DNA of 64,000 nt from Luteitalea pratensis (GTDB lineage: Bacteria > Acidobacteriota > Vicinamibacteria > Vicinamibacterales > Vicinamibacteraceae): contig NZ_CP015136.1 of assembly GCF_001618865.1 (NCBI RefSeq), forward strand, positions 3,445,001 through 3,509,000, written 5' to 3'. Below, in pieces: positions 47,993 through 64,000 of this stretch (position 1 is its first letter; every line of letters begins with the position of its first letter). Both the position numbers and the translations under genes were made by a program. The notes beneath the pieces were generated by a model. That model worked only from the letters and a program-made list of their open reading frames with translations. It made no database searches and had not been told where the DNA came from.

Positions 47993-48029
47993 AGTTCAAA
48001 ATTTCAAAATTTCAAAATTCACGAATTCA
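47993..48029. repeat. Half AATTTC-type element
   Basis: A run of caaaatttcaaaatttc-type units, one arm of family E, between the convergent hsp20 and ABC permease genes. It reaches into the permease stop codon. Confidence 0.75.
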
Positions 48030-49142
48030 ATTCGCGGTCTTCCGGAAGCGGAAGACCGCGAGTCCAATGATGGCGAAGGTGTAGAACGCCAGCCAGGAGA
48101 CGGGCTCCCACAGCTCGTCGAGTCCCGCCCCCCGCAGGACGATCCCCCTCACCACCTCGATGAAGTACCGCGCTGGAATCACGCGCGAGAGCATCTGGAA
48201 CACCAGCGGCATGCCGTCGATCGGGAAGACGTACCCGGACAGGAACACGAACGGCAACAGGAACATCATCGAGAGTTGCTGCGCCTGCCGCTGCGTCTGC
48301 GCGATCGTCGAGAGCAGCATGCCGAGTCCCAGCACCGCGGCAATGAACAGGAACCCCACCGCATAGAGCAGCAGCACGCTGCCCATGATCGGGATGTCGA
48401 AGAGGAAGCGCATCAGCAGCACCGTCACGGTCAGCTGCACGTAGCCGATGACGATGAACGGCACGAGCTTGCCGAGAATCAGCTGCGTGCGTGTGACCGG
48501 CGTCACCTGCAACTGCTCCAGCGTGCCGAGTTCCCGCTCGCGCACGATCGCCCCCGCGGTGAACTGGATCAGCGTGAAGGTCAGGATGATGGCCAGCAGG
48601 CCGGGAATGACGAAGGTGGCCGTCCGGAGGTCCGGGTTGTACCAGGGCCTGAGGCGCAGGTCGACCGGGAGCGCCGTCTCGCGCCACCCGGCGCGTCGCG
48701 CCAACGTCTGGATGGACAGCTGCGTTGCGACCCCGTTGGCAATCGACATCGCCTGAGTCGCCGTCGTCGTGTCCGACGCGTTGACGACGATGAACGCCTC
48801 GGCCGGCTTGCCGCGATGCCGGTTGGCGCCGTAGTCCCGATCGATCACGAGCCCGACCGACGCCGTCGCCGAATCGAGCGCCGTCTGCAACTCGCGCAGG
48901 CTGTCGACCCGCCCGACCACGTCGAAGTACTGGCTGGCCGTGAGTCGCGCGACGAGTTCGCGACTGTCGTAGGAGCGGCTCTCGTCGAGCACCACGGTCT
49001 TCAGGTGCTTGACGTCGTAGTTGATGGCATACCCGAAGACGAGGGTCTGCATCAACGGCACCAGGATGATCATGCGCAGCGTCAGGCGGTCGCGCTTGAG
49101 CTGCATGAACTCCTTCCAGGTCAGGGCGAGCAGGCGTCTCAT
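48027..49142 (-). CDS. ABC-2 type transporter permease
   Basis: The 371-residue product has one N-terminal membrane segment, a large periplasmic domain (about 45-175) and five C-terminal segments with the ABC-2 pattern (ERELGTLEQLQVTPVTRTQL about 210-229; PARYFIEVVRGIVLRGAG near the end), as in YhhJ/YbhR. It is the last gene of the operon and the only permease, although two ATPase genes precede it; E. coli YbhFSR uses two permeases. A homodimer is possible. ATG 49142 overlaps the ATPase stop by 4 bases. Confidence 0.9.
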   Translation of the reverse strand: MRRLLALTWKEFMQLKRDRLTLRMIILVPLMQTLVFGYAINYDVKHLKTVVLDESRSYDSRELVARLTASQYFDVVGRVDSLRELQTALDSATASVGLVIDRDYGANRHRGKPAEAFIVVNASDTTTATQAMSIANGVATQLSIQTLARRAGWRETALPVDLRLRPWYNPDLRTATFVIPGLLAIILTFTLIQFTAGAIVRERELGTLEQLQVTPVTRTQLILGKLVPFIVIGYVQLTVTVLLMRFLFDIPIMGSVLLLYAVGFLFIAAVLGLGMLLSTIAQTQRQAQQLSMMFLLPFVFLSGYVFPIDGMPLVFQMLSRVIPARYFIEVVRGIVLRGAGLDELWEPVSWLAFYTFAIIGLAVFRFRKTAN

Positions 49143-50089
49143 GCAGCCTCCCCGGAGCTCGTCGAGCGCTTGCGGGCCAGCGAGACGAAGACATCCTCGA
49201 GGGACGGCTCGGCGGATTCGGGCCGGCCGATGGCGGCAAGCGGTGCAAGCGCCGCGTCCCTGGCCTCCGCGCGCAGCACCGCGCGGAGGTGACGTCCGGC
49301 CAGGTACACATCCTCGAACTGCTGTTGCGATCGCAACGTCTCGAGTGCACCGAACGCGTCGTGCTCGACGACCACCTCGAAGAGCCGCCCCGCCAGGTGC
49401 GACTTCAGATCCAGCGGGGAGCCGTCGGCGATGAGTTCGCCGTCGAGGATGAAGGCGAGGCGATCGCACTGCTCGGCCTCGTCCATGTAGTGCGTGGTGA
49501 CCAGCACGGTCATGCCACGATCCGCGGCGAGCTCGTAGATGAGATCCCAGAACATGCGCCGCCCGACCGGGTCGACTCCGCCTGTCGGCTCGTCGAGGAA
49601 GAGCAGTTCCGGTTCGTGCAGCAGCGCGGCGGCGAGTGCCACGCGCTGCCGCAACCCGGTTGACAGGCCTTCGGTGAGCACGCGCCGCACCTCCTGGAAC
49701 CGTAGCCGATCGGCGAGCGCGTCGATGCGGTCCAGCAGGGAGGCGCCACGCAGGCCGTAGACCGACCCGAAGAAGCGCAGGTTCTCCTCGACGGTGAGAT
49801 CGAGGTACAGCGAGAACTTCTGGCTCATGTAGCCGAGCCGCCGCTTCCAGGCATCGGTGTTGGTCGCGAGCTGGATGCCGCCAAAGCCCGTAATCGTTCC
49901 AGAGGACGGTGCGAGCAGGCCGGCCAGCATGCGGATCGTCGTGGACTTGCCCGAGCCGTTGGGGCCAAGGAAGCCGAACACGCGCCCGCGGGGAATGTCG
50001 ACGTCGACGTTGCGCACCGCAACGAAACTGCCGAAGCGGCGCGTGAGCTGGCGAGCCGAGACGAGCACGTCTTGAGCCTGGGCCGTCAT
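49139..50089 (-). CDS. ABC transporter ATPase (second of two)
   Basis: The 316-residue ATPase has Walker A GPNGSGKST, signature LSTGLRQRVALA and Walker B LLFLDEPTGGVDP, followed by the H-loop TTHYMDEAEQCDR and a C-terminal extension of about 85 residues. It is an exporter-type ATPase of the drug/antibiotic resistance (DRA) or Ccm/Nod class. It corresponds to half of a YbhF-type protein, split here into two genes. ATGA overlaps at both ends. Confidence 0.92.
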   Translation of the reverse strand: MTAQAQDVLVSARQLTRRFGSFVAVRNVDVDIPRGRVFGFLGPNGSGKSTTIRMLAGLLAPSSGTITGFGGIQLATNTDAWKRRLGYMSQKFSLYLDLTVEENLRFFGSVYGLRGASLLDRIDALADRLRFQEVRRVLTEGLSTGLRQRVALAAALLHEPELLFLDEPTGGVDPVGRRMFWDLIYELAADRGMTVLVTTHYMDEAEQCDRLAFILDGELIADGSPLDLKSHLAGRLFEVVVEHDAFGALETLRSQQQFEDVYLAGRHLRAVLRAEARDAALAPLAAIGRPESAEPSLEDVFVSLARKRSTSSGEAA

Positions 50090-51003
50090 GCCACTGCCTC
50101 CGCTTCGCGTGCGTGCTGCTCGCTGTGCCAGACGAAGACGTCCTCGAGTGACGGCGCAAGCACGCGCACGTCGCCGGCGCCGACGGCGTCGCCCAGCGCC
50201 TGGCGGACTTCTGCGAGCAGTGCCGGCCCTTCGCCGGTGCGACCGCGGACGTGCAGGCGCGTGCCGAACAGTGAGACGTCGTCCACGCCGGGCAGCGCCG
50301 CGAGGCGTCGACGCAGTTGCATGCGGTCGTGGCTGCGCACCTCGACGAGCGCTCGCGGATAGTCCCCGACAATCGCCTCGCGGGTACCGATGGCAGTGAT
50401 TTGCCCGCGATCGAGGAACGCCAATCGTGACGCGTACTCGGCTTCGTCCATGTACGGCGTCGAGACGAGCAGTGTCAGCCCTTCGTGATGCAGCTGGTTC
50501 AGCAGGATCCAGAACTCGCGCCGGGACACGGGATCGACGCCGGTCGTCGGCTCGTCGAGCAGCAGCAGTTCCGGTTGCGTCATGAGGGCGCTGACGAGGG
50601 CGAGCTTCTGTTTCATGCCCCCGGACAGCGCCCCGGCGAGCCGCGTGCGAAAGCGGTCGAGCCCGACCCGCGCGAGCAGGTCGGCCGTTCGCGTCTTCGC
50701 AAGCGCATCGGGCACGTCGTAGAGGCGCGCCCGCAGGTGCAGGTTCTCGTCGATGGTCAGATCTTCGTAGAGCGAGAACCGCTGCGGCACGAGGCCAAAG
50801 GTGCGAACACCGTTCACCTCTACGCGCCCGCTCGACGGTGTCACCAGCCCCGCCACCAGCCGGAAGAACGTCGTCTTGCCGGCGCCGTCTGGGCCGAGCA
50901 GGGCGAACAGTTCGCCGCGCTGGATGGAGATCGTCAATCCGCGCAGCGCCTCGACGGCACCGAAGCGCATGGTGAGATCGGTGGCTTCGATCATCGCGCT
51001 CAC
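50086..51003 (-). CDS. ABC transporter ATPase (first of two)
   Basis: The 305-residue ATPase has Walker A GPDGAGKTT, signature LSGGMKQKLALV and Walker B LLLLDEPTTGVDP. D in GPDG at the Walker A position is typical of the first half of YbhF-like tandem ATPases. The GTG at 51003 overlaps the hlyD stop (GTGA); ATG 50994 is the in-frame alternative. Together with the next gene it makes a heterodimeric ATPase. Confidence 0.9.
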   Translation of the reverse strand: MSAMIEATDLTMRFGAVEALRGLTISIQRGELFALLGPDGAGKTTFFRLVAGLVTPSSGRVEVNGVRTFGLVPQRFSLYEDLTIDENLHLRARLYDVPDALAKTRTADLLARVGLDRFRTRLAGALSGGMKQKLALVSALMTQPELLLLDEPTTGVDPVSRREFWILLNQLHHEGLTLLVSTPYMDEAEYASRLAFLDRGQITAIGTREAIVGDYPRALVEVRSHDRMQLRRRLAALPGVDDVSLFGTRLHVRGRTGEGPALLAEVRQALGDAVGAGDVRVLAPSLEDVFVWHSEQHAREAEAVA

Positions 51004-52007
51004 GGCGTGCCTCCCGGAGTGGCGGGTGCCGGGACGATCACCTCGGCCGGCTGACCCGGCACGAGCGGCACTTTCCACCCGCCGTCGAGATCGACCTTCG
51101 CGGCGTACACCAGGTTCACCCGCTCGGCACGGGTTTCCACGGCCTTCGGCGTGAATTCGGCGTTCGGCGAGATCTCGGTGACCCGCGCCGCAAACGTCTG
51201 GCCCGGATGCGCATCCACCTGCACCTGCACCGCCTGTCCCTGTCGGACCTGGCCGAGTCGCGCCTCGGGAATGAACGTGCGCACGTACAGACGCGACTCC
51301 AGTCCCAGCGTCACCGCGGATTGGCCCGGACCGAGCAATGCTCCCGGCTCCACGAGCCGATGCAGGACGACGGCATCGCTCGGCGCGCGCAATTCGGCCT
51401 CCCGGACGACGATGTCGGACTGGGCCTTGACGCGCTGCGCACGTCCGAGTTCGGCCTCGGCCTGTTTTGTCTGCCACTGCCGGAATCCCTGCTGCACGAG
51501 CCGCAGTCGCTGCGTCGCCGCCTCGAGTGCCGCTTTCGCGCGTTCGACGTCGGACGCGGCCCTCTCGAGATCGCGCTGGGTCCCGACCCGCTTCTCGCGG
51601 AGGACCTGCTGCCGCGCGAGTTCCTCACGGGCCAGCGACAGCGCCGCGACACGATCGACACGCTCGGCGTCCGCGGTGGCGATCTCGGCACTCCGACTGC
51701 CCGATGAGAGATCGCGGACACGCGCCTCGGCTGCCGTCACCGACTGGGCGTCGCGATCGGGCGCGAGCGCAACCTCGGCGAGATCGAGCCGTACCAGCAG
51801 GTCGCCGGCCTTGACGCGATCCCCCTCCCGGACGAGGACTTCGACGACGCGGCCCTGGATCCGGGGCGCAATGTCGACCAGTGGCGCCTCGATGCGGCCA
51901 TTGAGGTGCACGCGTTCATCGGCGGGCCCGCGTCGGCAGCCGCCGAGTGTGACGACCGTCGCGACGACGGTGAGCGCGGCAAGCGGGGCGAAGCAGTGGC
52001 GCGTCAT
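51000..52007 (-). CDS. HlyD/membrane-fusion lipoprotein
   Basis: The 335-residue periplasmic adaptor links the ABC transporter to TolC. The N-terminus is a lipoprotein signal (ALTVVATVVTLGGC, lipobox LGGC). A biotinyl-lipoyl-like segment (GRVVEVLVREGDRVKAGDLL, about 50-69), a long alpha-hairpin (about 90-200) and the beta-barrel (GLESRLYVRTFIPEARLGQV) follow. The pattern is that of YbhG/MacA relatives. It overlaps tolC and the ATPase by 4 bases. Confidence 0.92.
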   Translation of the reverse strand: MTRHCFAPLAALTVVATVVTLGGCRRGPADERVHLNGRIEAPLVDIAPRIQGRVVEVLVREGDRVKAGDLLVRLDLAEVALAPDRDAQSVTAAEARVRDLSSGSRSAEIATADAERVDRVAALSLAREELARQQVLREKRVGTQRDLERAASDVERAKAALEAATQRLRLVQQGFRQWQTKQAEAELGRAQRVKAQSDIVVREAELRAPSDAVVLHRLVEPGALLGPGQSAVTLGLESRLYVRTFIPEARLGQVRQGQAVQVQVDAHPGQTFAARVTEISPNAEFTPKAVETRAERVNLVYAAKVDLDGGWKVPLVPGQPAEVIVPAPATPGGTP

Positions 52008-53713
52008 CGTGCGGTTCCTTTCGGGGCAACTGGCCATGCGCCCTGGGCAATCGTTCGATCCGTCGTCGAGGCGAGCGCGGCCGGCTTCGCGTGCGAGAGA
52101 TCGGGCATGTCGCGTGCGGTTGGTCCTCCGGGTGGCGTGCCTGCCGGCGCCGGCGCATCCAGCGTGATGCCACGCCGTTCGAGCAGGCGACCCGTCGCAC
52201 GGAGCAGTTCCGTCGAGGCCCGGGCGACTTCGATGCGCGCGGCTGTGAGCGACAACGCCGCCTGCGCCAACTCGGTCTGGCGTGTCAGTACGAAGAAGTT
52301 GCTGCTCTGGCCGGTCTCGAAACGCGCCTGCTCGGCAACGAGCAGGTCGTTGGACGCCGACTCCAGGGCGATCGCGGCGTCGAGCCGCTCGCGGGCCGCG
52401 CCGAGCACGGCGGCTGCGGTGCGGACTTCGGTGGCGATGCGCTGCGCCACCTGGTCGCGAAGCAGCGCGGTCCGTCGTTCGACGAGTGTCGCGACGACGA
52501 CGTCGGCCTTTGCCGCGCGCCGCCCGATGGGCAGGGCCATGCTGACGCCGACGTAGACGTCCGAGAAGCGATGCGTGAACAGATTCTGCAGCGAGTCGTC
52601 GTAGCCGCCGAGGAGTCCGTCCGGCACCGTCACGGTGCCGCCGGGGAAGGGCACGAAGAGATCGGGATTCTCGCTTCCAGCCAGGCCGCGGAGGTTGTAA
52701 GCGGCCACGAGATCGAGTTGCGTACGATCGCGCTCACGAGCCAGCGCGGTGTCGAGTTCCGCGATCTGCCGGGCCGCATCGACGTCGGTGAGTTCCGGGC
52801 GTCGCGACAGCGCCTCCTTCACGAGGGCATCGACAGCTTCCATCGCCACCGCGGCGGGCGGTTCGTCGACGAGGTCGAAGGCCATCGTCCAGGCGGGGGA
52901 GTCGGCGGTGCCTGCCACCAACTGCCGCAGCGCGATGTCGGCGCGCCCGGCCTCGTCGTGCGCGCGCACCAGATCGGCGCGGCGCCGCGCGATCTCGGCC
53001 TGCGGCGCCGCCAGTTCCGCCTCGGCGGCGATCCCGGCCTGGATTCGCACCGCTGTGTCGTCGCGCTGCGCCTCGGCCAGCGCCAGCGACCGCTCGCGGA
53101 TGCGCACGTCCTCGCTCGTCGCCTGCACCGCCCAATAGGCGCGCTCGACGGCCGCCACCGTTTCGGCGACGAGATGCTGGAGGGCGGCACGACTACGCGA
53201 CACGTCCAGTGCCGAGACCTTCAGCGCGCGCCGCTGCGGATCGATTCGGCGGCCCGCCATCAACGGTTGCCGCAGTTCCACGCCGACCGCCGTGAAGTAG
53301 GCGGGCGTGAGGAGGAAGAAGAGGCCATTGGTCTTCTCGAGTGACGTCGATGCCGTGCCGGTGACAGTCGCGCCGCTCTCGAAGAGGCGACTCCACGCGA
53401 CGCTGCCCTGGAGGCTGTTGGTCCGAGGGGCGAGTGCGCCTTCGGGCGCGCCGACAAACAGCGTGTTGGTCGGGTCGGTTCGCGTTCGGACCCGGCTGTC
53501 GATGCGCAGGACGGAATCGTAGGCGGCCTCAGCGCGCGTCTCGCCCTGGGCGGCGATGGTGACGGCATCGCGCTGGATGGCAACTTCGGGCAGGCGCTCG
53601 ATGGCCCGGGCGGTCGCGTCGGCCAGCGTCAGCGGAACCGGCTGTGCGAGCGCCGCCGCGGGCAGGAGCGCGACCAGCCCCCACAGGGCCATTCGTCGCG
53701 AGGCGCGCGTCAT
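52004..53713 (-). CDS. TolC-family outer-membrane efflux protein
   Basis: The 569-residue product has a signal peptide (MTRASRRMALWGLVALLPAA, cleavage near ALAQ) and two TolC/OEP repeats with long helices (AYDSVLRIDSRVRTR, LRDQVAQRIATEVRTAAAVL, LLVAEQARFETGQSSNFFVL). The last segment is the conserved OEP ending. The C-terminal about 45 residues are low-complexity. It would form the outer-membrane duct for the downstream HlyD/ABC export genes. It overlaps the small peptide gene by 4 bases. Confidence 0.92.
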   Translation of the reverse strand: MTRASRRMALWGLVALLPAAALAQPVPLTLADATARAIERLPEVAIQRDAVTIAAQGETRAEAAYDSVLRIDSRVRTRTDPTNTLFVGAPEGALAPRTNSLQGSVAWSRLFESGATVTGTASTSLEKTNGLFFLLTPAYFTAVGVELRQPLMAGRRIDPQRRALKVSALDVSRSRAALQHLVAETVAAVERAYWAVQATSEDVRIRERSLALAEAQRDDTAVRIQAGIAAEAELAAPQAEIARRRADLVRAHDEAGRADIALRQLVAGTADSPAWTMAFDLVDEPPAAVAMEAVDALVKEALSRRPELTDVDAARQIAELDTALARERDRTQLDLVAAYNLRGLAGSENPDLFVPFPGGTVTVPDGLLGGYDDSLQNLFTHRFSDVYVGVSMALPIGRRAAKADVVVATLVERRTALLRDQVAQRIATEVRTAAAVLGAARERLDAAIALESASNDLLVAEQARFETGQSSNFFVLTRQTELAQAALSLTAARIEVARASTELLRATGRLLERRGITLDAPAPAGTPPGGPTARDMPDLSHAKPAALASTTDRTIAQGAWPVAPKGTAR

Positions 53714-53940
53714 CGCGTCACCCCCAGGCGCTGGAGCCGGGGATCGAGCGCTCCGGCAAACCGATCCAGGGCTTCCGGCGGCAGTTCGAGAAGCGCGCGG
53801 CGCTCGGTAGGCGTCACCTCCAGCGCCGCCTCGGTGGTGAGTGCGTCGAGCGCTTCGGCGCGCGCCTGTTTGTACCGCGCCCTCCAGTGCTCGTCGGTCG
53901 CGAGTCGACCGATCACTTGTTCCACGTGTGCCTGGCTCAT
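53710..53940 (-). CDS. Small RiPP-precursor-like protein, 76 aa (Franean1_4349-like)
   Basis: The product begins MSQAHVEQVIGRLATDEHWR and ends with LPPEALDRFAGALDPRLQRL then GVTR. The pattern (V-E-x-x-I-G-R-L-x-T-D-E, then L-T-x-x-E-R-x-A-L, then F-A-x-x-L-D-P-R-L-Q-R) resembles, from memory, small proteins labelled Franean1_4349-type putative RiPP precursors. No modification enzyme is visible nearby. It is the first gene of a six-gene operon with 4-nt overlaps to tolC and sits 18 nt after the predicted sigma-54 start site, with ggaagg as ribosome binding site. A regulatory or chaperone role is an alternative. Confidence 0.6.
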   Translation of the reverse strand: MSQAHVEQVIGRLATDEHWRARYKQARAEALDALTTEAALEVTPTERRALLELPPEALDRFAGALDPRLQRLGVTR

Positions 53941-53969
53941 GGCTGATTCCTTCCCAGCCAGCGTAGGGA

Positions 53970-53984
53970 GCAAGCGGCACGCCA
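53970..53984 (-). promoter_or_regulatory. Sigma-54 promoter (-24/-12) of the peptide/export operon
   Basis: The minus strand reads TGGCGTGCCGCTTGC, matching the core TGGC-N7-TTGC. The predicted start at about 53958 gives an 18-nt leader with ggaagg before the ATG at 53940. An enhancer-binding activator gene lies just upstream, which supports the call. Confidence 0.7.
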
Positions 53985-54162: not shown

Positions 54163-55803
54163 TTATATCGCGAGGCCGTGGCGTTTGAGGCGGACGTAGA
54201 ACTGGGCGCGCGTCAGGCCCAGTGCCCTCGCTGCCTCGGACTTGTTGTATCGCGCTCCAACCAGGGCGTTTTCGACCATCTCGCGCTCGACATCCGGGAG
54301 TGTCTGGCGGCGTTCAGTCCCGGCCGGCAACCCGATCCGGCGCGGGGCCGTGGCCGGGTCCGACGCGCCGGACGACTGCGGGGGCGCCGGCGCCGGGAGA
54401 GCGAGATGCTCGGAGGTGATCAGTCCGCCGCCGGCGAGGATCGCGGCACGCTCGAGCACGTTACGGAGTTCGCGCACGTTGCCAGGCCATGGGTAAGCCA
54501 GCAGTCGGGGGGCTGCCTCGCGCGACAGCCCGGCGCCACGCCGTCCCAACTGCCGCCCGATGTCCTCGAGCAGCACTTCGGCCAGGGGCAGCACGTCATC
54601 GGGACGCTCACGCAGAGGCGGCAGGGCGATGACGAAGATATGCAGCCGATAGAACAGGTCCTCGCGGAACGTGCCGCGGTCGACCATCGTGCGCAGGTGA
54701 CGATGCGTCGCGGCGATCACGCGCACGTCTGCGCGCAGCACCCGCGACGCGCCGACGCGCTGGAACTCTCGCTCCTGGAGCACCCGCAGCAGCTTGGCCT
54801 GCGCGCCGGGCGACAGTTCGCCGACCTCGTCGAGCAGCAGCACGCCGCCGGCCGCGCGCTCGATGAGGCCGGCCCTCGTCTGCGTGGCGCCCGTGAAGGC
54901 GCCCTTTTCATGCCCGAACAGTTCCGACTCGATCAGCGACTCGGGCAGGGCGGCACAGTTGATCGCCAGGAACGGTCCGGCGGCCCGCGGGGACGCGCCA
55001 TGGATGAAGCGCGCAAGCACTTCCTTGCCCGTGCCGGACTCTCCCGTGAGGAGTACGGTCGTGTCGGTCGCCGCGACCTGGGCGGCTTCGCCTACCGCCT
55101 GCCGCCACGCTGCCGACACACCCACCATCCGTCGTGGCGAGCCATGCCCGAGGACCGACAACTGGTCGGTCAGCGAACGCACACGTTGCTCGAGCGCCGT
55201 CGCGCGCTCGCGCACCTCCGCGGCGCGTGCCGCCTCGTCGGCGAGATCCTTGTGTGCCAGCGCGAGCGCCACGTACGCCGCCACCCGGATTGCCACCGGC
55301 GCGTCCTGCGCCGTGAAGCCACCCTGGGCCCTCGACATGAAGTTGAGCCCGCCGAAGACCTGTCCGTTCCGACGCAGCGGAACGCGCAGCGACCCGTGCA
55401 GGCCGGCAACCACGGCCGGGATCTGCCGCATGACCGGGTCGGTCGCCATGTCGTCGCACAGGAGGTAGTCCCACGGCACCTCGAACAGGTGCCGGGCTTC
55501 CTGCGGCACCTGGATGCGATCGGGGCGTTGAAAGTCGACTTCGGTCGTCAGGGCGTGGACAAACAGCGATTCCCGGTCGGGCGCGAGCAGCGCGAGCGCC
55601 AGCGCGTCGTGCGGCAGCACCCGGCAGGTGACCCGAGACAAATGCGGGAACACCTCACGGATGTCCAACGCCCCCGAGAGCAGGGGCAGCAACTCGGCCA
55701 GCGCGTCGAGCCGCGCGAGCAGGTCCGCGTCGGGGGGCACGGCTAGACGATAGCGCACGTCCGGCCGAACCCCGGGTGCATCCCACTCGTCAAACTCCGG
55801 CAA
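54163..55803 (-). CDS. Sigma-54-dependent transcriptional activator (GAF-AAA+-Fis)
   Basis: The 546-residue product has an N-terminal GAF domain (about 30-190), an AAA+ domain (about 225-460) with Walker A GESGTGKE, the sigma-54 contact loop GAFTGA and Walker [13 protein letters not shown], and a Fis-type helix-turn-helix ([20 protein letters not shown]). It should activate the promoter at 53970. The GAF domain suggests a small-molecule or redox signal. The start is uncertain: TTG 55803 is used; a later GTG (codons VRYRLAVPP) is possible. A peptide operon lies directly downstream on the same strand. Confidence 0.9.
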
Positions 55804-55814
55804 GAGGAGAGCCG

Positions 55815-56159
55815 ATGACGACGCTGTTCGTGATGGGATTCGCGATGGTGGCGATGCTGGTGGTGACGGGGCTGGCCTTGGCGTGGGCGGCGCTGCGCGC
55901 GGTGCTGTGGGTCGTCTTCCTGCCGCTGATGTTGCTCAAGGCGCTGTTCGGTCTCGTCTTCGGGCTGTTCGGCCTCGTCTTCGGATTGGTGTTCGGGACG
56001 CTCGGCCTGGTGGTCGGCCTGCTCGTGGCCCTCGTGGTCGGTGGCGTGGGTCTGGTGGCGCTCCTGGCCGTCGTCGCCATACCGCTCGTGCCGTTCCTGC
56101 TCGTTGCCGGGCTGGTGTGGGTCGCCGTGAAGGGCACGACGGCCCTGGCCGCGGTGTAA
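55815..56159 (+). CDS. Small hydrophobic membrane protein, 114 aa
   Basis: [20 protein letters not shown] starts an almost completely hydrophobic protein with 3-4 membrane segments and phenylalanine/glycine-leucine runs ([20 protein letters not shown]). It is divergent from the sigma-54 activator gene across 11 bp. A good ribosome binding site (agagga) precedes the ATG. No family is recognised. Confidence 0.6.
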
Positions 56160-62036: not shown

Positions 62037-63413
62037 ATGACACGCATGCTCGCCCGGCCTGTTGCGGCCGCCGCGCTGGCCGTCGGCATCGTGGCGGGAG
62101 CCTTCGAGGCACCTACCGCTGCCACATCCGTCAGGCCAACGGCGTTCAAGTTCGACGACTACACGCTGCCCAACGGGCTGCGGGTCATCCTGCTCGAGGA
62201 TCACTCGACGCCGATCGTCCACGTGACGCTCTGGTACCACGTGGGATCGAAGGACGAGAAGACCGGTCGCACCGGTTTCGCGCACCTGTTCGAGCACATG
62301 ATGTTCAAGGGCAGCAAGAATGTGCAGCCCGAGGCGCACACCTCGTACATCGCGTCGGTCGGTGGGCAGAGCAACGCCTACACCACCGAGGACACGACGG
62401 TCTTCTGGCAAACCGTTCCGGAGCAGTACCTGCCACTCACCCTGTGGCTCGAGGCGGATCGGATGGCGTCGCTCCGCATCGAGGACGCGACGTTCAAGAC
62501 CGAGCGGCAAGTGGTCAAGGAGGAACGCCGGCAGCGGGTGGAGAACCAGCCGTACGGTCGCCTCTCCGAGATCATCTACGACAGCGCGTTCACGACGCAC
62601 CCTTACAAGCACCCTATCATCGGCAGCATGGCCGACCTCGAGGCCGCGAGCATCGAGGACGTGCGAGAGTTCCACCGCAACTATTACCGGCCGGACAACG
62701 CGACGCTGGTGATCGCGGGCGACTTCGACCCGGCCGTCGCCAGGGGCCTCGTCGACCGCGAGTTCAGCAAGGTTCCCAAGCCGGCCGGCGTCGTGCCGCG
62801 CAACATCCCGCAGGAGCCGGCGCGGACCAGGGAGTTACGCGTCACGATCGAGGAGGACTGGCCGCTGCCGGCGGTGGTCGTCGCCTACCCGATCACCTAC
62901 GACGGCAACCCCGACTCCTACCCGCTGCACATCGCCGCGAAGGTGCTCTCCGATGGCACCAGTTCGCGCATCTACCAGCGGCTGGTCTACAAGGAGCGAC
63001 TGGCACTCTCGGCATTCGGGCAGGCGAACCTGATCGAGAACCCGAACCTGTTCTACACCGTGGCCATCGTCGCACCGGGGCACACGCCCGAGCAGGTGAC
63101 CAAGGCGCTGATCGAGGAAATGGACAGGCTCGTGACCGAGCCGATCACCGCGCGCGAGCTCGAACGCAGCAAGAATCAGTTCGCGCGTGATTACGTGCTC
63201 GGACGTCAAACCGTACAGAACAAGGCCACCATCCTCGCGCACGCCGTCGTCCTCCACAAGGGCGATATCGGCACCGCGGACGGGGAGTTCGACATCTTCC
63301 AGAACATGACGGCCGCCGAGGTGCAGCGCGTGGCGAAGACCTATTTCACGCCGCAGAGCCGGATGGTGCTCACGGTGATGCCACGCGGGCAGCGCCCCGC
63401 CGGGGGGCAGTAG
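62037..63413 (+). CDS. M16 zinc peptidase, active-type subunit
   Basis: The 458-residue exported peptidase has a signal peptide (about 1-28) and the inverted zinc motif HxxEH in FAHLFEHMMF (about 80-89), with a second glutamate in the downstream ERRQRVEN segment. It belongs to the pitrilysin/processing-peptidase family and cuts peptides in the envelope. CATAAT lies 7 nt before the ATG. A second, apparently inactive M16 gene overlaps its stop by one base, so a heterodimer is likely. Confidence 0.93.
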   Translation: MTRMLARPVAAAALAVGIVAGAFEAPTAATSVRPTAFKFDDYTLPNGLRVILLEDHSTPIVHVTLWYHVGSKDEKTGRTGFAHLFEHMMFKGSKNVQPEAHTSYIASVGGQSNAYTTEDTTVFWQTVPEQYLPLTLWLEADRMASLRIEDATFKTERQVVKEERRQRVENQPYGRLSEIIYDSAFTTHPYKHPIIGSMADLEAASIEDVREFHRNYYRPDNATLVIAGDFDPAVARGLVDREFSKVPKPAGVVPRNIPQEPARTRELRVTIEEDWPLPAVVVAYPITYDGNPDSYPLHIAAKVLSDGTSSRIYQRLVYKERLALSAFGQANLIENPNLFYTVAIVAPGHTPEQVTKALIEEMDRLVTEPITARELERSKNQFARDYVLGRQTVQNKATILAHAVVLHKGDIGTADGEFDIFQNMTAAEVQRVAKTYFTPQSRMVLTVMPRGQRPAGGQ

Positions 63414-64000
63414 TGATCGTGCGATCGATGCAGACCCTGTGGCTGGCCGCGGTGGCGATCCTGGTCGCGGTGACCTCGCCGCTGTGCGCGCAGGAGCGGC
63501 CGCCACGGCCCCTCGAGGCGCACGACGTCAAGATTCCGCCCTACGAAATCCGGACCCTCCCCAACGGGCTGCGCGTGGTCGTGGTCTCGCAGCACGAGCA
63601 GCCGGCGGTGAGCCTGCGCATGCTCGTCAAGGCCGGGTCGGCGCAGGATCCAGCCGGCAAGCCCGGTGTGGCGGCGATGGTCGGCGGTCTCCTGGATCAG
63701 GGCACTGCCAGGCAGTCGTCCGAGCAGATCTCCGACATCATCGACTACGTGGGCGGGGCGCTCGGATCCGGGGCCGGCACCGACCTTTCGTACGCGAACA
63801 TCCTCGTCCTGAAGGACCGCTTCGACTTCGCGCTGGACCTCATGGCCGACGTGGTGCGCACACCATCGTTCCCGCAGGAGGAACTCGACCGCGTGCGCAC
63901 GCAGGCGCTCTCGGCGATGTCGGTCAACATGCAGGATCCCGAGTTCGTCGCCGATGCCGTGATCGATCGCCTGGTGTACGGGTTCCATCCGTACGGATTG
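63413..64000 (+). CDS. M16 peptidase-like subunit without HxxEH (cut by window edge)
   Basis: The GTG at 63413 overlaps the previous stop (TAGTG); ATG 63428 is the alternative. A signal peptide (LWLAAVAILVAVTSPLCAQ) leads to an M16 fold (IRTLPNGLRVVVVSQHEQPA). Where active enzymes have HxxEH this protein reads VAAMVGGLLDQG, so it is the non-catalytic partner type. The 3' end is outside the window. Confidence 0.88.
   Translation, partial: MIVRSMQTLWLAAVAILVAVTSPLCAQERPPRPLEAHDVKIPPYEIRTLPNGLRVVVVSQHEQPAVSLRMLVKAGSAQDPAGKPGVAAMVGGLLDQGTARQSSEQISDIIDYVGGALGSGAGTDLSYANILVLKDRFDFALDLMADVVRTPSFPQEELDRVRTQALSAMSVNMQDPEFVADAVIDRLVYGFHPYGL

Follow-up and report, generated by a model that had tools for sequence, protein, structure and literature searches.

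A core-less Os1348-type small protein encoded with a sigma-54 activator and an efflux pump in Luteitalea pratensis is very probably not a RiPP precursor

Among the closest described systems is Os1348 of Pseudomonas sp. Os17, whose crystal structure is reported to show six helices, a dimer, and six disordered C-terminal residues (PMC7726476). According to the accessible text of the same report, Os1348 was not detected in culture medium or supernatant, and loss of a neighbouring RND pump gene raised the cellular level of the protein, in which its authors saw a hint that it is transported. The raised level would agree equally with feedback on expression. A comparison of another kind is offered by PspA and PspF: in the accessible part of PMC4987338, pspA is described in an operon controlled by PspF, and PspA is a separate protein that controls this sigma-54 activator. 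As far as our literature searches go, which left out most subscription papers, a linkage of Os1348-type proteins with sigma-54 activators is undescribed; the family is known, and the context appears to be unreported.

The window analysed here is a stretch of 64,000 nt from the Luteitalea pratensis genome. An open reading frame on its minus strand (53710–53940) was confirmed as a real gene for a small protein of 76 aa, MSQAHVEQVIGRLATDEHWRARYKQARAEALDALTTEAALEVTPTERRALLELPPEALDRFAGALDPRLQRLGVTR. Codon usage scored this ORF as coding, and pN/pS values of 0.34, 0.22, and 0.45 (three pairs, two congeneric genomes) indicated purifying selection. It is the first gene of a pump operon and is followed on the same strand by genes for a TolC-type outer-membrane channel (52004–53713; PF02321, scanned from 52027), an HlyD-type periplasmic adaptor (51000–52007; PF16576 and PF13437), a DrrA/RbbA-like ABC ATPase in which no peptidase domain was seen (50086–51003), a second DrrA/RbbA-like ABC ATPase (49139–50089), and an ABC-2 permease (48027–49142; PF12698). 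All junctions are 4-nt overlaps, including that with tolC (53710–53713), which the sequence-only reading had correctly noted. The gene overlap strongly supports co-transcription of the small protein with the efflux pump.

A gene for a GAF/AAA+ sigma-54 enhancer-binding protein (EBP) with a Fis-type HTH (54163–55758, minus strand; PF00158, PF13185, and PF02954, and the tree described below) lies 223 nt upstream of the small-protein gene on the same strand. Between the two genes, a putative sigma-54 −24/−12 promoter, TGGCGTGCCGCTTGCT, was located at 53969–53984 on the minus strand, starting 44 nt before the ATG. Its aligned counterparts in the congeners are an exact TGGC-N7-TTGC in L043 and a site one base off in L051. 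A palindrome upstream of the promoter, CGTGGATTCCACG, was considered as an activator site and rejected: 42 of 100 shuffles gave one equally long, and it was not conserved in the two congeners. The RNA structure of the leader plus small-protein gene had a z of −1.73, with 7 of 200 shuffles as stable, and a plasmid search gave no match. On the other side of the EBP gene, a 114-aa hydrophobic protein without a Pfam match is encoded at 55815–56159 on the plus strand; it adjoins the EBP gene in both congeners too (cl15).

The small protein matched the NCBIfam model NF038399, "Os1348 family NHLP clan protein," with 45.5 bits against a cut-off of 40 (E 6e-12), confirming the likeness to RiPP-precursor models that had been noted from the sequence. 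It stayed below the cut-offs of Pfam PF14407 (Frankia_peptide; 32.8 bits, gathering cut-off 48) and TIGR04509 (NHLP-related RiPP peptide; 19.2 against 34). Relatives were collected by searching NF038399 against 193 genomes of the class, of which 48 had a match at E ≤ 0.001 and 18 one over the cut-off, and against 396 genomes of the phylum (overlapping the class set), with 48 at E ≤ 1e-4 and 25 over the cut-off. The surroundings of 25 and 40 matches were then retrieved, with genes from a home-made caller and labels from BLAST. A core set was defined by E < 1e-21 and a length under 120 aa (40 rows), from which L111 (the same record as L077) and L079 (without the GRLxTDE motif) were dropped, leaving 38 members; L041 (pump-linked) and L006 (YcaO-linked) fell outside this threshold. 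The phyla sampled were Acidobacteriota and Desulfobacterota. In 17 of 72 loci no member was called by the gene caller, and four core-like ones were recovered later. The relatives in named records were uncultured Acidobacteria. The 38 core members have in common the motif MSQxxVExxIGRLxTDE ... LTxxExxAL ... LDPRLQ(R/K) (alignments A1 and A3). Of the motifs quoted in the sequence-only reading, VEQVIGRLATDE and FAGALDPRLQR are present, but the middle one is VTPTERRAL here, LTxxE being the family consensus; furthermore, these are motifs of the family rather than repeats inside the protein.

Structure prediction of the peptide alone with AF2 (monomer, A1 alignment) gave a confident helical fold (mean pLDDT 90.7) with five helices (residues 3–15, 17–25, 27–37, 44–51, and 55–64) and disordered last residues. 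In a Foldseek search with this model, the top three matches were Os1348 chains (6lk7; probability 0.97–0.99, TM about 0.6, identity about 20% in the structural alignment), although with weak E-values of 0.33–0.49. By E-value this match is therefore suggestive, and it becomes convincing mainly with the family profile search, which finds 6lk7 at E 7.8e-5; the single sequence gave no match in the PDB. The AF2 model and the Foldseek matches, with their weak E-values, thus agree with the Os1348 fold, which is helical and has no core. No Gly-Gly cleavage motif is present in the small protein, its tail after LDPRLQR is 5 residues long (LGVTR), and no Cys/Ser/Thr-rich C-terminal core was found. Among the core relatives, GG occurs after residue 40, near the C-terminus, in 2 of 38, and the tails have a median of 8 aa past the LDPRLQR/K-type motif (37 of 38 members with the motif found) with a C+S+T content of 22%; some RND-linked members have a conserved CSLR tail. 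These results strongly support placing the small protein in the Os1348 family as a folded protein without a core, and by analogy it is probably a homodimer like Os1348.

According to the sequence-only reading, the precursor label would fall if a confident helical fold conserved with the activator or the pump came with no precursor-model match; the fold and the conserved linkage were found, and so was the match. The protein might be a RiPP precursor of the NHLP/TOMM or graspetide type that is exported by the pump and whose enzymes are encoded elsewhere. As had been stated, the window contains no match to YcaO, LanC-like, or radical-SAM enzymes; the accompanying claim that no peptidase gene is near did not hold, since a pair of adjacent M16 peptidase genes is found about 8 kb off on the plus strand (62046–64000). 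The second of these runs off the window, and no link to the small protein was seen. A genome-wide search of the host (7.48 Mb, one contig) found one YcaO and three family copies above the NF038399 cut-off, one being the window copy. A paralogue at 2159447 (L007) comes at the end of an RND pump operon that is accompanied by a divergently oriented activator gene. The other paralogue, at 2014848 (L006), directly follows the only YcaO of the genome and a TfuA gene, so that YcaO, a TfuA-like gene, and a 71-aa Os1348-type peptide stand in a row (L006:7958–10052; G000 C1:2012957–2015051); the YcaO scores above the TIGR00702 cut-off and the TfuA-like protein reaches 222 bits against an NF033432 cut-off of 235. 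This row is plausibly a real RiPP cluster of the host genome. The suggestion that the enzymes lie elsewhere therefore holds only in the sense of this single YcaO, which adjoins its own paralogue of the peptide.

The precursor explanation gains from the NF038399 match and from the YcaO- and TfuA-linked paralogue. Likewise, the accessible text on the Pseudomonas Os17 founder places it beside SagB-like and peptidase genes and reports that its loss lowers antibiotic activity (PMC7726476), and NHLP leaders are themselves described as highly structured (PMC12455567, as accessible), so the fold alone does not exclude a precursor. Nevertheless, the small protein has neither a Gly-Gly motif nor more than its short tail, the window pump has no leader-cleaving domain, and Os1348 itself was not found outside the cells. 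An NHLM-type ABC transporter set (TIGR03794/6/7) was not found in the window, the adaptor reaching 21.9 bits against a TIGR03794 cut-off of 156.2. No YcaO was found in 32 of the 35 carrier genomes searched and no LanC-like match in 26 of 35, with none on the same contig near a core member; within 8 kb of the 38 core members there was no YcaO or TfuA and one radical SAM, at 3.4 kb (L113). These negatives refer to the classes YcaO, TfuA, LanC-like, and radical SAM. We consider a precursor very unlikely; of the two explanations offered from the sequence, a wrong label fits better than enzymes encoded elsewhere, whereas the role then proposed, an accessory of the exporter, proved too narrow.

Within 8 kb of the 38 core members, which are counted for Acidobacteriota, an EBP gene was found in 29 loci, a pump gene in 32, both in 25, and neither in 2, one of which (L058) has a truncated EBP at a contig end. 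Together with the tolC overlap, the pump counts uphold the tie to export claimed earlier. The four core-like loci missed by the gene caller had a pump in all four cases and an EBP in two; L082 and other weak loci among the caller-missed rows were not core-like. Weak matches outside the core were mostly without an EBP or pump beside them, the exceptions being an EBP-like gene in L095 (at about 4.4 kb) and L097 (at about 5.1 kb), an ABC gene adjoining L078, and the pump of L041. The pump types varied and comprised RND pumps, DrrA-type ABC pumps (window, L043, L051, and L091), and an FtsX/MacB-like ABC pump (L039, FtsX permease). A 4-nt overlap with a labelled outer-membrane-channel or adaptor gene was seen in 14 of the 38 core relatives; the window is not counted among them, since the home-made caller had placed the start of tolC further downstream. 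The small protein is not always promoter-proximal, being encoded by the last gene of the RND operon in L007, L047, L050, and L057, and in some loci its gene is convergent to the EBP gene.

A pump accessory, working in the cytoplasm as an adaptor or gate and translated together with the channel or adaptor to allow assembly, would account for the overlap with the first pump gene in these 14 loci and for the pump genes within 8 kb. It would also suit L077, L112, and L113, which have pump and protein but no EBP in the stretch covered; L112 covers only about 2 kb on each side, and further loci of this kind lie at contig ends. In L077 and L113, the Os1348-type gene heads an operon with an RND pump and an HlyD-ABC exporter. 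Against this stand the unrelated pump types and the loci with EBP and protein but no pump in the stretch covered (L044, L052, L059, and L073, several near contig ends), of which L044 and L052 show none across 4.2–9.0 kb on each side. Relatives thus stand beside an activator without a visible pump or, as shown below for Desulfuromonadia, before other downstream genes, and we regard an accessory of the pump as an unlikely explanation. In L044, L049, L052, L055, and L174, four or five genes (cl11–cl14 and cl6) form a conserved block next to the EBP and the small protein, both with and without a pump.

Gene distances across 22 loci correlated between peptide and EBP (rho 0.64), peptide and adaptor (0.33), and EBP and adaptor (0.11); in a TolC set of 19 loci, rho was 0.10 for peptide and TolC versus 0.55 for peptide and EBP, without a p-value. 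The low adaptor and channel values arise partly because two pump families are mixed, which lowers the correlation. A strict TGGC-N7-TTGC site within 120 nt upstream was found for 14 of 38 core genes versus 11 of 380 other genes in these loci (Fisher p 5e-10, a value that is too small because the loci are related and the test ignores kinship), the overall rate being 0.0036 per 120 nt. Seven of the 11 control matches belong to pump adaptor genes that come first in linked pump operons, including the operons of L007, L047, L050, and L057 that end in the small protein. Eight of the 14 sites come from one group of similar loci, and there the site is a conserved island in otherwise varied sequence; the other six are those of the window, L043, L039, L040, L054, and L059. 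The remaining 24 core genes have no strict promoter, and none was found in L077, L112, or L113, where no EBP was seen. At L054:4623–4847, a core member has a sigma-54-type site at −37, with no EBP or pump in 13.8 kb.

A tree built from the region between the AAA+ domain and the C-terminus placed all 30 EBPs that neighbour the small protein on a single branch (SH-aLRT 100). Outside it fell 29 other EBPs, all from the host genome, the only genome from which background EBPs were taken; 31 regions had been fetched, L154 and L155 gave no usable ORF, and rows without a Walker pattern were trimmed at a fixed place. The converse search, starting from this EBP group, detected it in 39 of the 193 genomes of the class. 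In 20 further EBP neighbourhoods, 17 of them in a nested subclade (f13), other genes adjoin the EBP, and neither an Os1348-like ORF (E < 1) nor a labelled RND/TolC pump was found; two of the 20 (L173 and L175) break off at contig ends right after the EBP. The f13 subclade contradicts the idea that the activator always needs the small protein, and the activator can thus work without it. Here protein and pump are absent together, as a pump accessory would have it; one change of context, losing or gaining both protein and pump, is enough to explain this. In L158–L172 (f13), a recurrent locus comprises a pair of EBP-like genes (about 980 and 660 aa), a small gene of PilZ size, and a gene for a protein of ~290 aa beginning like TYQGVAT, with no Os1348 and no pump labelled. 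The gene beside the f13 EBP resembled an alpha/beta hydrolase by eye, and it had no Pfam match.

A second lineage was found in Desulfuromonadia. One named match came from Geobacteraceae (L117), whose genome has three copies; a phylum-wide draw gave matches in 3 of 297 genomes, and the class of L117 gave 71 matches in 50 of 277 genomes. We examined 32 loci, the best 30 plus two of these 71 matches. In 22 of these 32, an EBP ORF with GAFTGA and ELFG-type motifs lies within about 1.5 kb, upstream on the same strand in 21 of the 22; a profile-based count had given 24 of 32, higher because the profile contains the GAF domain and let in doubtful cases (L118). A sigma-54 site of at least 10/12 within 120 nt was found in 13 of the 32, in many cases at −86 to −93, versus 12 of 1546 control tiles. 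The EBPs include a response-regulator type (L124 and L125) and a PAS type (L122). Downstream genes encode chemoreceptors (L122, L124, L125, and L203), a two-partner-secretion protein (L178), a metallophosphatase-like protein (L193), an HD-domain response regulator (L191), and a DUF3089 protein (L189). No pump was found among the downstream genes identified, and none follows the small protein in the five Desulfobacterota loci mapped, which again argues against a pump accessory; in L124, a separate ABC/TolC operon lies about 4 kb away.

Taken together, these results strongly support a module in which a sigma-54 activator and the small protein are combined with an output operon, with sigma-54 control and activator linkage supported by comparison of sequences. 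The small protein is very probably a core-less folded protein of this module and not a RiPP precursor. From the promoter match, EBP-activated sigma-54 polymerase would very likely start transcription at 53969–53984, so that switching on the pump would always yield the small protein first. It would stay in the cytoplasm and in turn influence the activator, either inhibiting it by feedback or serving as its partner in sensing an inducer, as PspA does with PspF. An anti-activator would be expected to have its gene under its own EBP; the promoter match and the EBP adjacency, both read from sequence, make the small-protein gene a candidate for such control. We tentatively favour a role in feedback on the activator or in sensing together with it, by a logic like that of PspA, because the pump is exchanged while activator and small protein stay, because peptide distances follow the activator more than the adaptor or channel, and because the protein sits behind activators without a pump in Desulfuromonadia; that its direct target is the activator is possible, and we put it forward with some reserve. 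Against this role speak the f13 activators that do without the protein, the three pump loci in which no EBP was seen, the loci where the gene is not promoter-proximal, and the 24 core genes lacking a strict promoter. A sigma-54 output protein with a job unrelated to activator and pump, such as binding the pump substrate or a toxic intermediate, would agree with sigma-54 control being the constant feature across lineages while outputs differ. The peptide–EBP distance correlation, and the fact that the partner family stays the same when pumps are swapped, suggest a more specific partner, and an unrelated output seems quite unlikely.

More speculatively, and with some doubt on our part, such proteins in Acidobacteriota and Desulfuromonadia alike could form a previously undescribed class of sigma-54 partners with a core-less RiPP-leader fold, acting as ligand-sensing or feedback regulators of EBPs, and NHLP leaders may derive from this fold. 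Automatic annotation calls these proteins RiPP-related, and a large group of them seems tied to sigma-54 switches with drug-type efflux or sensory outputs. If this is true, natural-product mining mislabels regulators as RiPP-related, and standalone, non-precursor use of the leader fold would give a handle on the origin of structured RiPP leaders. The analysis further points to a candidate regulatory gene next to pumps that are otherwise uncharacterised.

Compared with known systems, the small protein resembles Os1348 (6lk7) in its NF038399 membership, its length (76 aa here and 85 aa in Os1348), its predicted helical fold (TM about 0.6), the absence of a core, and the presence of an efflux pump nearby. 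The Os17 cluster differs in having GNAT, peptidase-like, and SagB-like genes, and its accessible description names no sigma-54 activator; moreover, the Os17 RND pump is described there as convergent and as present also in strains without the cluster. NHLP/Nif11-type RiPP precursors, as described in the accessible part of PMC2887384, have a leader-type helical domain in common with the small protein, in line with its sub-cut-off TIGR04509 match, whereas Gly-Gly, a heterocyclisable core, a maturase, and a peptidase-ABC transporter are missing here. PspA–PspF is similar in logic only, with no sequence or fold relation claimed, and unlike PspF, which in the accessible account has no regulatory domain, the activator here carries its own GAF domain.
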